Shown here: positions 29,230 through 45,029 of the stretch, piece after piece
Layout of the letters: each line of letters starts with the position of its first letter
How positions within the stretch are numbered: the stretch's first letter is position 1
Assembly: GCF_018323885.1 (NCBI RefSeq)
Contig: NZ_AP024585.1
Span: 1,612,001 to 1,676,000, forward strand
Source: Citrobacter amalonaticus
GTDB lineage: Bacteria > Pseudomonadota > Gammaproteobacteria > Enterobacterales > Enterobacteriaceae
Direction of reading: 5' to 3'
Length of the DNA: 64,000 bases
Translations under genes and position numbers: made by a program
Notes under the pieces: generated by a model
Seen by the model: only the letters and a program-made list of their open reading frames with translations
The model's database searches: none
What the model was told of the DNA's origin: nothing

Positions 29230-29270
29230 TTATGTTCGTTTACACGCTAGTATCGCCATAACCACAGTTA

Positions 29271-29386
29271 ACACTCTAGCCTCTGCACCTGGGTCAAATG
29301 ATACGGTGCTTTGGCCGTGACAACGCAAACGCATTGCCACCAGGGCGCAGGAAGAAATGACTTCGCCTCCCGTATTTGGAAAGGTG
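29271..29386 (+). ncRNA. Molybdenum-cofactor riboswitch (Moco RNA motif)
   Basis: The moaA leader closely matches the E. coli Moco RNA element. Its conserved segments CTCTGCACCTGGGTCA, GATACGGTGCTTTGGCCGTGAC, GCCACCAGGGCG, GGAAGAAATGA and CTTCGCCTCCCG are in order. CTGGGT and CACCAGGG form the central helix. It ends just before the GGAAAGG Shine-Dalgarno of moaA, so cofactor binding would hide the start. One base pair of the final hairpin is broken (GGCGCAG against CTTCGCC). Confidence 0.9.
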
Positions 29387-29389
29387 TAC

Positions 29390-30379
29390 ATGGCCACACA
29401 ACTGACCGATGCTTTCGCGCGCAAGTTTTACTATTTGCGTCTGTCGATTACCGATGTGTGTAACTTTCGTTGCACATACTGCCTGCCGGATGGCTACAAG
29501 CCCGGCGGCGTCACCAATAAAGGTTTTCTCTCCGTCGATGAAATTCGTCGGGTGACTCGCGCCTTTGCCAATCTGGGCACCGAAAAAGTGCGCCTGACCG
29601 GTGGCGAACCTTCTCTGCGTCGTGATTTTACCGACATCATTGCCGCCGTGCGTGAAAACGAGGCGATTCGTCAACTGGCGGTGACCACCAACGGCTACCG
29701 TCTGGCGCGTGATGCCGCCCACTGGCGCGATGCGGGTTTGACCGGCATTAACGTCAGCGTTGATAGCCTTGATGCGCGTCAGTTCCACGCGATTACCGGG
29801 CAGGATAAATTCCAGCAGGTGATGGCGGGCATCGACGCCGCGTTTGATGCCGGTTTTGCAAAAGTTAAAGTCAACACCGTGCTAATGCGCGATGTGAATC
29901 ATCATCAGCTCGATACTTTTCTTGGCTGGATCCAGACGCGTCCCATTCAACTGCGTTTCATCGAACTGATGGAGACGGGTGAGGGCAGCGAACTGTTCCG
30001 TAAACACCACATCTCCGGTCAGGTGTTGCGTGACGAACTGTTGCGTCGCGGCTGGATCCACCAGCTACGCCAGCGCAGTGACGGCCCGGCGCAGGTGTTC
30101 TGTCACCCCGATTATGAGGGTGAAATCGGCCTCATCATGCCGTACGAAAAAGATTTCTGCGCCACCTGCAACCGTCTGCGCGTCTCCTCCGTGGGTAAAC
30201 TTCATCTCTGCCTGTTCGGCGAGGGTGGCGTCAGCCTGCGTGATTTGCTGGAAGACGATGGGCAACAAGACGCGCTCGAAGCGCGTATCTCGCTTGCGTT
30301 GCGTGAGAAAAAGCAGACCCATTTCCTGCACCAGAACAACACCGGTATTACCCAGAACCTCTCATACATCGGCGGTTAA
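29390..30379 (+). CDS. moaA: GTP 3',8-cyclase MoaA
   Basis: A 329-residue radical SAM enzyme that performs the first step of molybdopterin synthesis. The N-terminal cluster cysteines C24, C28 and C31 are in CNFRCTYC. The second cluster is in [12 protein letters not shown] and the later LHLCLF. The C-terminal Gly-Gly (SYIGG) needed for activity is present. The ATG at 29390 follows GGAAAGG by 6 bases. The in-frame ATG at 29357 lies within the riboswitch. It leads the moaABCDE operon. Confidence 0.96.
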
Positions 30380-42264: not shown

Positions 42265-43626
42265 ATGTCTTTTGATTCCCTGGGTTTAAATCCTGATATT
42301 CTGCGCGCCATTGCTGAGCAGGGTTACCGTGAACCTACCCCTATTCAGCAACAGGCGATCCCTGCCGTGCTGGAAGGTCGCGACCTGATGGCGAGTGCGC
42401 AGACCGGTACCGGTAAAACGGCGGGCTTTACGCTGCCGCTGTTACAGCACCTTATTACCAAACAGCCGCATGGCAAAGGGCGTCGCCCGGTGCGTGCGCT
42501 GATCCTGACGCCAACGCGTGAGCTGGCGGCGCAGATTGGTGAAAACGTCCGTGATTACAGCAAGTATCTGAACATTCGCTCGCTGGTGGTTTTTGGCGGC
42601 GTGAGTATTAACCCGCAGATGATGAAACTGCGCGGTGGCGTCGATGTGTTGGTGGCAACGCCGGGCCGCTTGCTGGACCTGGAACACCAGAACGCGGTGA
42701 AGCTGGACCAGATTGAGATTCTGGTGCTGGATGAAGCGGACCGTATGCTGGATATGGGCTTTATTCACGATATTCGCCGCGTGTTAGCGAAACTGCCGGC
42801 GAAGCGTCAGAACCTGCTGTTTTCCGCGACGTTCTCTGATGAGATCAAAGCGCTGGCTGAAAAGCTGTTGCATAACCCGCTGGAAATTGAAGTGGCGCGT
42901 CGCAACACGGCGTCTGAGCAGGTGACGCAGCACGTCCATTTTGTCGATAAGAAACGCAAGCGCGAACTGTTGTCGCAGATGATCGGTCAGGGCAACTGGC
43001 AGCAGGTACTGGTCTTTACCCGCACCAAACACGGCGCCAATCACCTGGCGGAACAGCTCAACAAAGATGGTATCCGCAGCGCAGCGATCCACGGTAACAA
43101 GAGCCAGGGGGCGCGTACCCGTGCGCTGGCGGATTTCAAATCAGGCGATATCCGCGTGCTGGTGGCGACTGACATTGCGGCGCGAGGTCTGGACATCGAA
43201 GAACTGCCGCACGTGGTGAACTACGAGCTGCCGAACGTTCCGGAAGATTATGTGCATCGTATCGGTCGTACCGGTCGTGCTGCGGCGACGGGGGAAGCGC
43301 TGTCGCTGGTTTGTGTTGATGAACACAAACTGCTGCGTGACATTGAAAAACTGCTGAAAAAAGAGATCCCGCGTATTACCACGCCGGGCTATGAGCCAGA
43401 TCCCTCGATCAAAGCTGAGCCGATCCAGAATGGTCGTCAGCAGCGTAGCGGTGGTGGCGGTCGGGGCCGTGGTCAGGGACAAGGGCAGGGCGCGGGTCGC
43501 GCTCAGCAGCCGCGTCGTCAGGACGGTGGCGCGTCGAAGGGCAAACCGCGTGGCGCAGAAGGCAAACCGGCGGGTGAAAAGCCACGTCCACCGCGTCGCC
43601 CGCGCAGAATTACACCCGTACAGTAA
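42265..43626 (+). CDS. rhlE: ATP-dependent RNA helicase RhlE
   Basis: A 453-residue DEAD-box RNA helicase that acts in ribosome assembly. The Q motif ([11 protein letters not shown]), Walker [15 protein letters not shown] ([12 protein letters not shown]), SAT and HRIGRTGR are all present. The C-terminal 70 residues are rich in Arg, Gly and Gln ([24 protein letters not shown]), a typical RNA-binding tail. It faces away from cecR. Nothing resembling a strong terminator follows, and the repeat pair starts 72 bases later. Confidence 0.95.
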
Positions 43627-43698
43627 GGGGGTCAGGAAGGCCTGATACTCTGAGAAATGTTACGTTCACTTTGTATTCAGTGATTCTCTGAAACCGCA
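43627..43698. other. Spacer between rhlE and the repeat pair
   Basis: A 72-base stretch with no gene. The partial inverted repeat CAGGAAGGCCTGATAC is visible near 43633-43648, without a following T run. Confidence 0.4.
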
Positions 43699-43965
43699 GT
43701 ACACGTGAACGTGCAAGGGAGGCTCACCGCCGCCTCCCTTGCAACCCTGGCTCCCGGCAAGGAAAATCGCCACTTCGTGGTTCATTCGTCTTATGCCGTC
43801 TGCCTGTCGGGTCGGGGTCGAGCCTGCATCCATGCAGGCCGTCCCCTCCGCCCGCTTCCCTGCGGGCGGCCCCGGTCAGCCGCCAACGCCTCATCGATTT
43901 TCACGCCGGACCAATGCCATCGCTTCAATTCTCTGCCTTTCAGCTAAATTCACTTCGCTGTAAAA
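43699..43965 (+). repeat. Structured repeat, copy A
   Basis: This is one of two related ~250-base elements facing each other. Starting from GTACACGTGAACG, it holds four hairpins in order: H1 43713-43742 (11 bp, 8-base loop), H2 43770-43780 (CCAC-TTC-GTGG), H3 43822-43839 (8 bp around CC) and H4 43848-43869 (8 bp, 6-base loop). Copy B on the other strand has the same four at matching spacing, with compensatory changes in the stems. The shared linkers are TGGCTCCCGGC and TTTTCA(C)GCCGGACC. A short open frame (43705-43947) exists but has no start signal, so I treat it as a by-product. The family is not recognised. Confidence 0.72.
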
Positions 43966-44211
43966 AAAAGCAAACCGTGGAGATGGTCAGGTATGGATAG
44001 GTCCGGCTGAAAATTGCCGACGCGTTTCCGTAAGGCCGGGAGAACCCGCAGGGATGCGGGTTCAGGGCGCGCGAAGCAGGGATGCTGAGTCGTGCCCGGC
44101 CCGGTAGCCTGAAGGAATAAGCGGAGGGTATCGCGAAGCGACAATTTTCCAGCCGGGAGCCAGGATTGTTAAGGAGGCGGCGACGAGCCTCCTTAACCCG
44201 TTCACAGGTAC
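43966..44211 (-). repeat. Structured repeat, copy B (inverted)
   Basis: The partner of copy A on the minus strand, starting GTACCTGTGAACG at 44211 and running leftward. Hairpins in plus coordinates are H1 44168-44197 (11 bp, 8-base loop), H2 44131-44141 (TCGC-GAA-GCGA), H3 44075-44086 (AGCA/TGCT, 4-base loop) and H4 44042-44063 (8 bp, 6-base loop). On the minus strand it ends near an eight-T run (43971-43964), where the two copies meet tail to tail. An open frame (44062-44298, minus) has a product resembling that of copy A (A-A-S-L-x-x-L-A-P-G), as expected of homologous DNA. Confidence 0.72.
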
Positions 44212-44294
44212 TGGTGTACCAGATTGGCTGCGAACATGAGGTGAACGGTACTCGTCCCACAGGGGCATATGCTTCTCAAAGCGTATACGCCCCC

Positions 44295-45029
44295 TCACTC
44301 CCCCGCATTCTGCGATTTCAACACAATAGAACAGGTATACCTTCCCGCCGGGTGAATTGAAATCGTGGTCTCGAACACTTTCCCGTCACGATCCCGATAG
44401 CGCCGTACGATGCGCATCCCCGGAGAGTCGGGCTCGACATTCAGTATCTTGGCGATTTTCTTCGGTACGCCAACGGCGGTGATCGTCTGATGCACTTCGT
44501 GACTCTTAATTCCGTAGTGCGTTTCGATCAGATCGCTAATCAGCGAGTGCGGATCGTCGCGGATGAACGCGCGTAGCCTGGAATAATCGGTGCTGGCGTA
44601 ACTGTCCGTCCAGCAAATAGGCGCATCCGGGTTTTGCGCATCCTCACGAATACTGGCGATATGTAGCCAGCGTGAACCGGGCGGGCAATCTATCAGTTGG
44701 GAAAGCTCAATATCCGCTACAATCTCATCGATCTTCTTAATCACCCGCAGGTTGTTTTTCGCCAACAGCAGCAGATCTTCCAGATGTGACAACGGATGGT
44801 TAACCCCGCTCGCCTGCGGTTCGCATACGCGCGTGCCAGCGCCTTTACGTCGCGAAATCAACCCCTGTTCCGTTAATTCCCTCAGCGCTTCGCGCATGGT
44901 GTGACGACTCACTTGCCAGGTTTCGCACAGTTCCATTTCTGTCGGAAACAGTGAACCGGGCGGGTAAGTTCCCGTTGAGATTTGATGAGCCAGTTCACGG
45001 GCTATCCGTTTGTACAGAGATTCTTTCAT
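44295..45029 (-). CDS. GntR/UTRA-family regulator of the adjacent lyase-transporter genes
   Basis: A 244-residue regulator. The N-terminal GntR winged helix reads FPTEMELCETWQVSRHTMREALRELTEQGLISRRKGAGTRV (about residues 28-68), followed by a UTRA effector domain (LIETHYGIKSHEVHQTITAVGVP, then RRYRDRDGKVFETTISIHPAGRYTCSIV). It resembles HutC-type repressors that bind small catabolites. The start ATG has only a weak Shine-Dalgarno. It is divergent from the lyase gene, and three tandem palindromes lie between them, so it very probably represses both itself and the lyase-transporter operon. Confidence 0.88.
   Translation of the reverse strand: MKESLYKRIARELAHQISTGTYPPGSLFPTEMELCETWQVSRHTMREALRELTEQGLISRRKGAGTRVCEPQASGVNHPLSHLEDLLLLAKNNLRVIKKIDEIVADIELSQLIDCPPGSRWLHIASIREDAQNPDAPICWTDSYASTDYSRLRAFIRDDPHSLISDLIETHYGIKSHEVHQTITAVGVPKKIAKILNVEPDSPGMRIVRRYRDRDGKVFETTISIHPAGRYTCSIVLKSQNAGE

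Follow-up and report, generated by a model that had tools for sequence, protein, structure and literature searches.

A scattered two-armed intergenic repeat of Citrobacter with TwoAYGGAY-type RNA arms that may act as CsrA decoys

Introduction

Between rhlE (42265-43626, plus strand) and a minus-strand GntR-like gene (44295-45029), both named by resemblance, the chromosome of Citrobacter amalonaticus carries an intergenic region in which two similar sequences face each other. All coordinates refer to the window, by which we mean the whole stretch of 64,000 nucleotides that was analysed. An earlier note, made from the sequence letters, had described two facing copies of an element with four hairpins (H1-H4) and had suggested a structured RNA or a mobile palindromic family. 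The locus thus raises the question of what the two copies are, whether their hairpins act as RNA or as DNA, and what such hairpins could do.

Results

One repeat with two arms

The two facing copies with stems H1-H4 are indeed present in the sequence and in the alignment, and the pair matches its own reverse complement with 67% identity over 517 bases (E 7.4e-39). The arms lie within 43699-44211, the extent first assigned to the element, whereas the unit itself is wider, at approximately 43643-44270 (~630 bp), as judged from outer ends that recur at other copies. These ends are GTTACGTTCAC (43659-43669) and GTGAACGGTAC (44241-44251), both of which were found at further copies. Outward of each H1, many listed copies have CGTTCAC, about 30 variable bases, GTGAACGGAAC, and then about 13-18 bases to an RCATRT-like end; this end motif is our reading of the copy list, from which some copies deviate, for example on the left side of L020. 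Terminal inverted repeats are therefore present, GTGAACG(G/T)(A/T)AC-like at both ends of this element and with GTGAACGGAAC in many copies.

Among the collected loci, we found 124 distinct pairs of neighbouring arm matches separated by under 250 bases, which are not independent events because near-identical orthologues are among them. In 81 of the 124, both 5' ends are intact and the arms stand back to back with their 5' ends in the centre. Of the rest, nine retain both 5' ends and face the opposite way, one is a tandem pair, and 33 are missing the 5' end of one or both arms; the back-to-back order is seen in 11 of the 33. Elsewhere in the genome, a tauA-like gene is preceded by a second copy, again laid out back to back and with its right arm shortened. 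The 81 pairs and this second copy argue for one two-armed element and not two separate insertions. The facing copies of the earlier note are thus real, but copies A and B belong together as the arms of a single interspersed repeat, about 630 bp long (Table 1).

Other arrangements were also seen. Near the tauA-like gene, an extra outer-end motif (GGCGAACGGAACC..GACATGAAA; L002 1979-2013) lies past the element end and is perhaps a remnant. At L057 1102-3861 (G018), four two-armed units stand in tandem, with left arms 634-641 bases apart, upstream of a formate-dehydrogenase-like gene, named by resemblance. L133 (G183:C1:1789218-1790270) holds three same-strand arms at 446-base spacing and a fourth further on.

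Table 1. Parts of the two-armed element, in window coordinates; the strand is that of the GGA loops or of the outward reading.
Feature	Position	Strand	Basis or remark
Whole two-armed element	43643..44270	.	limits approximate; outer motif plus ~13-18 nt to RCATRT-like end
Left outer motif, outward reading GTGAACGTAAC	43659..43669	-	
Arm A hairpin H1, 12 bp, 8-nt loop	43712..43743	-	sequence, alignment
Arm A RNA core, TwoAYGGAY-like fold	43749..43912	-	model R1 158.1 bits (L001 1560-1723); fold z -4.0
Arm A small hairpin H2	43770..43780	-	helix 10 of 139-arm alignment, 99.5% of cells paired
Arm A second GGA hairpin (H3), loop AUGGAU	43822..43839	-	positions, predicted fold
Arm A first GGA hairpin (H4), loop AGGGAA	43848..43869	-	positions, predicted fold
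Central AT-rich spacer between arm 5' ends	43913..43999	.	similar spacer length in aligned loci
Arm B RNA core, TwoAYGGAY-like fold	44000..44161	+	RF01731 44.0 bits (43996-44163); R1 177.5 bits; z -5.3
Arm B first GGA hairpin (H4), loop AGGGAU	44042..44063	+	positions, predicted fold
Arm B second GGA hairpin (H3), short stem, loop AGGGAU	44075..44086	+	ANGGA at 44078; predicted fold
Arm B small hairpin H2	44131..44141	+	positions, predicted fold
Arm B hairpin H1, 11 bp, 8-nt loop	44168..44197	+	alignment
Right outer motif GTGAACGGTAC and end GCATAT	44241..44270	+	

The arm fold is kept by paired base changes

To describe the fold, 78 distinct full arms were reduced to 19 representatives below 88% identity, and one with an internal deletion was removed. 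The remaining 18 were aligned by sequence alone (alignment A1), and a covariance model, R1, was built from them. According to A1 and the predicted folds, each arm comprises an outer stem, the small hairpin H2, an inner stem and a junction bearing two hairpins. In A1, 94.5% of the cells are paired, as opposed to 77.9% in shuffles, with none of 500 shuffles as high; sliding the partners gave at most 46.2%, and 32 of the 49 pairs show two-sided changes. A larger set, comprising the best 150 of 184 R1 matches and yielding 139 distinct rows, was fitted to R1. Here, 95.7% of the cells are paired (81.0% in shuffles, again 0 of 500 as high) and 34 of the 49 pairs show two-sided changes, compared with 26.7 in shuffles. 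On the strand with the GGA loops, the arm cores also fold better than all 200 of 200 dinucleotide shuffles (z -5.3 for arm B and -4.0 for arm A).

The covariation is strong in both the 18 representatives and the 139 distinct arms, and the arm fold is kept by paired base changes, which bears out the structured RNA of the earlier note. That note had proposed searching related genomes with a covariance model and had named a lack of covariation, or a coding origin, as grounds for giving the idea up. Run on the relatives' genomes, R1 gave widespread matches with covarying pairs among the 139 distinct arms, and the open frames over the arms had no Pfam match at E 10.

The wobble pairs favour the strand with the GGA loops

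Helices leave the strand open, and G-U wobble pairs discriminate, so we counted G-U against A-C cells. On the GGA-loop strand, the 139 distinct arms have 115 G-U and 24 A-C cells, one pair supplying 38 of the 115. The counts are 29 and 9 in 32 representatives below 90% identity, 7 and 5 in 13 representatives below 80%, and 20 and 12 in a hand count of A1; counted as pair types, they are 29 and 20 (139 rows), 16 and 8 (32 rows), and 5 and 5 (13 rows). The asymmetry leans moderately towards an RNA read from the GGA-loop strand, and it fades in the most stringent sets (the 13 representatives and A1). By the G-U excess, the two arms would be read outward from the centre, A as minus-strand and B as plus-strand RNA. 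The copies had first been described as plus (A) and minus (B); the GGA loops lie on the opposite strand in each, minus in A and plus in B.

The hairpin loops carry a CsrA-type motif

The first hairpin loop is ANGGA, N being any of the four bases, in all 78 distinct full arms, and the second in 55 of them, being missing in 23. Column by column, the first loop C A N G G A N G (n=139) has C in 135, A in 137, G in 139, G in 138, A in 139 and the final G in 136 arms; the N before GG is G in 94, T in 38, A in 6 and C in 1. Changes of the flanking C and G mostly come as a pair, as with GAGGGAAC in 3 rows. A further sample of 20 loci, chosen to be mostly divergent, has 25 arms; GGA is kept in 24 of their first loops and 25 of their second loops, intact ANGGA in just 19 and 14, respectively. 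Per arm, ANGGA occurs on average 2.45 times on the GGA strand, 0.49 times on the opposite strand and 0.87 times in mononucleotide shuffles.

In one report, the RsmE/CsrA consensus is given as 5'-A/U-CANGGANG-U/A and the motif as 5'CANGGANG3', the SELEX sequence being RUACARGGAUGU (PMC6849547). At the level of this motif, the first arm loop matches the published Rsm/CsrA docking site, a likeness that the earlier note had missed. The host genome encodes both csrA and csrB. Its CsrB contains 21 GGA, just 5 of them within ANGGA; since it mostly has GGA without ANGGA, the longer motif is dispensable as a signature.

Another, smaller repeat, about 75 bases long, was seen at L021 1429-1500, L022 1428-1500, L174 754-825, L200 1399-1472 and L016 907-978. 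It forms four small hairpins, the last of which usually has a CA[GT]GGATG loop. This smaller repeat sits inside arms at two different positions as well as alone elsewhere and has matches in 20 of 59 relatives; two of its loci scored 40.4 and 38.5 bits against Rfam AaHKsRNA22 (cut-off 39.8). A few hundred bases from an arm in L017, we also observed an isrA match (977-1105, 60.7 bits, cut-off 51) and a sub-threshold SymR match (1171-1244, 47.3 bits, cut-off 61).

TwoAYGGAY is the nearest family

The earlier note had recognised no family. The arm fold is nearest to TwoAYGGAY (RF01731), copy B lying marginally above the gathering cut-off of 43 with 44.0 bits at 43996-44163 on the plus strand, in a search of 701 bases with lax filters. 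Copy A gave no RF01731 match in the same search, and RF01731 at E 1e-3 had no match in the whole genome. Matches in relatives reach 55.8 bits and cover part of the model. Rfam on the whole window listed a molybdenum cofactor riboswitch alone (29260-29402, 95.7 bits), TwoAYGGAY being absent from the list. RF01731 and CsrB form the Rfam clan CL00106. Against the AYGGAY of the family name, the four GGA loops of this element are one AUGGAU, two AGGGAU and one AGGGAA.

TwoAYGGAY was reportedly described in 2010, without a function. Human gut, gamma-Proteobacteria and Clostridiales are listed for it (PMC2864571), and a 2014 text proposes CsrA binding and names Clostridia (PMC4333381). The RNA family and the CsrA idea were thus already known. 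Among the titles and abstract beginnings of the open-licence literature, we found no description of a dispersed, two-armed version that has H1, H2 and common outer ends.

The element is widespread in the family

By BLAST, 12 of 59 relatives have matches. With R1 at E 1e-5, at least 90 of 246 family genomes match, such counts being lower bounds as at most 11 candidates were scored per genome. Of 247 genomes of the order, R1 matched 30, and 19 of the 30 belong to six families other than this one. Scanning named genomes for the pattern returned 65 stretches, of which 54 with an arm or arm piece belong to Citrobacter, Yokenella and Trabulsiella; the arm profile found no arm in the other 11, from unrelated bacteria. 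Partial matches occur in 3169 of 5426 E. coli genomes, none of them spanning 80% of the query; annotation is absent from all 20 matches listed. The E. coli relatives are single-arm, and E. coli K-12 retains a deletion remnant between yegH and asmA.

Phage records gave no match, and 14 of 72,556 plasmid records did. All six of those inspected lie among chromosome-type genes, in five records typed as non-mobilizable and one conjugative IncHI1A record (a 57-base match). Carriage by plasmids is thus possible and weakly shown.

Orthologous sites are filled or empty

Five sites were compared by the spacing of their flanks in ten genomes, leaving out genomes with a single flank. The L020 site measures 762 bases when filled (G003) versus 189-191 (G000, G002 at two places, G005, G030, G198) and 277 (G001), and the L070 site 703 (G002) versus 226-228 (G000, G001, G003, G005). 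For L072, 602 bases (G002) compare with 117-119 (G000, G001, G003, G004, G005), other spacings being 217 (G030, G198), 314 (G006) and about 7.3 kb (G007). L071 has 578 bases (G002) versus 227 (G006) and 148 (G004). L031 has 753 bases (G005) versus 177 (G003) and 131 (G006), with longer spacings of 1100-1200 bases in G000, G001 and G002 (an arm being present in G002), about 5.4 kb in G030 and 2.5 kb in G198.

Orthologous sites are thus filled or empty within the genus, and the proposed mobile palindromic family stands in so far as the element is dispersed and polymorphic in its presence. The earlier note had also suggested looking for clean insertion sites. Empty sites were seen, but at the three sites that were aligned the element replaces short intergenic DNA in every case, and neither a target duplication nor exact ends were found in any of the three. 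At the rhlE site of a related genome (G006, L089), the element is absent and repeats that we judge to be REP-like stand in its place; repeats that we judge likewise occupy the empty form of one aligned site. We infer that transposition, by an enzyme acting in trans, spread the element; deletion or replacement would explain single filled and empty cases equally well. As a partner enzyme, a Y1 transposase is unsupported: none of 18 loci around Y1 matches (12 genomes, flanks up to 1.5 kb) has an arm, and 3 of the 12 arm-bearing genomes lack a Y1 match altogether.

Copies tend to lie behind genes

The contexts of 102 copies are 51 convergent, 41 co-directional and 10 divergent, as opposed to 22, 70 and 66 among 158 other gaps; these counts rest on crude gene calling, and some orthologous sites are counted repeatedly. 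Copies tend to sit behind genes, so read-through could transcribe them. A consensus scan found no sigma-70-type promoter in the central spacer, which gives no support to a central promoter; the lone promoter-like match lies off centre at 44172-44144 on the minus strand. The same scan detected neither a terminator nor a terminator-like T run. With no central promoter and no terminator, the element is unlike a stand-alone sRNA gene.

Discussion

We give about an even chance to the reading that the element is a scattered intergenic repeat of back-to-back TwoAYGGAY-type arms whose transcripts are likely to serve as CsrA decoys. Several ANGGA in hairpin loops, a feature of CsrA-titrating sRNAs, are found in the arms (first loop in 78 of 78, second in 55 of 78). 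Read-through from the ends of flanking genes would transcribe the arms, each gene's transcript running antisense through the arm next to it and sense through the more distant one. The GGA loops of the arm transcripts would then bind CsrA, two loops per arm suiting a dimer, and the many dispersed copies might jointly lower free CsrA. Several points count against a decoy. The second loop lacks ANGGA in 23 of the 78 arms, the conserved core is far larger than two CsrA hairpins require, and the wobble signal fades among the most divergent representatives. With the arms pointing outward, read-through would also enter the first of them from its antisense side.

Other readings of the same repeat have to be weighed against decoys. 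The arms could be a REP/BIME-like 3'-end element, whose hairpins protect or end messages between neighbouring genes, the loop motif being there for the fold itself or for a different RNA-binding protein. We regard this as unlikely, even though convergent genes make up 51 of 102 contexts as opposed to 22 of 158 other gaps (divergent genes, 10 of 102 as opposed to 66 of 158) and REP-like repeats occupy the rhlE site of one relative and another empty site: hairpin ends alone would not fix the A and GGA of the loop amid varying neighbours, and a terminator-like T run is absent. It is quite unlikely, in our estimate, that the element is purely mobile DNA, its hairpins being single-stranded or cruciform transposase signals and its GGA loops being read by the enzyme, with no RNA role. 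The back-to-back arms, the inverted outer ends, the presence and absence at orthologous sites, the dispersal in many genera and the weak wobble asymmetry in the most divergent set (7 versus 5) would fit such signals, whereas the overall excess of G-U over A-C (115 versus 24; 29 versus 9 in representatives), the three aligned sites without target duplication, the 0 of 18 Y1 loci with an arm and the 3 of 12 arm-bearing genomes without a Y1 match speak against them.

That the arms are protein-coding, with hairpins as a by-product, is scarcely credible. Open frames of 80 and 106 codons do overlap the arms, but a Pfam search at E 10 gave nothing for them, PHROGs yielded a single match (E 0.024), and the stems carry two-sided changes.

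Beyond the decoy reading lies a bolder and doubtful possibility, that of a self-spreading enterobacterial CsrA sponge. A selfish two-armed repeat would have taken up the hairpin that a host regulator binds, the level of free CsrA in a strain would be set by the number of copies and by how active the genes upstream of them are, and the smaller repeat with the same kind of loop would insert into the sponge. If true, this would be selfish DNA plugged into a global RNA regulator. The two-armed repeat occurs in common enterobacteria and has single-arm relatives in E. coli, which brings the CsrA idea to easily handled organisms; if the loops bind CsrA, differences in repeat number between strains become a candidate cause of differences in CsrA-controlled traits.

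Among known systems, MITEs are short non-coding elements with inverted ends, filled and empty sites, a target duplication and a partner transposase. The present element shares the first of these features, being short and non-coding with inverted ends and filled and empty sites, but it shows no target duplication at three sites and no partner transposase was found (Y1 was searched). Like REP/BIME elements, it is intergenic, often 3' of genes, palindromic and multicopy; unlike REP palindromes, described as 20-40 bp long (PMC3733652), it measures about 630 bp and has no Y1/RAYT gene near the arms in the loci examined. CsrA-titrating sRNAs of the CsrB/CsrC type likewise have GGA in hairpin loops, and CsrB belongs to the clan of RF01731. 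The element differs from them in having two main sites per arm, no promoter or terminator of its own that we could find, and dispersed copies instead of one gene. With TwoAYGGAY its predicted fold shares the outer stem around two GGA-loop hairpins; the element departs from that family in that its arms form back-to-back pairs within a repeat with shared outer ends, H1 and H2 are added, and the commonest first loop is AGGGAU, not AYGGAY.
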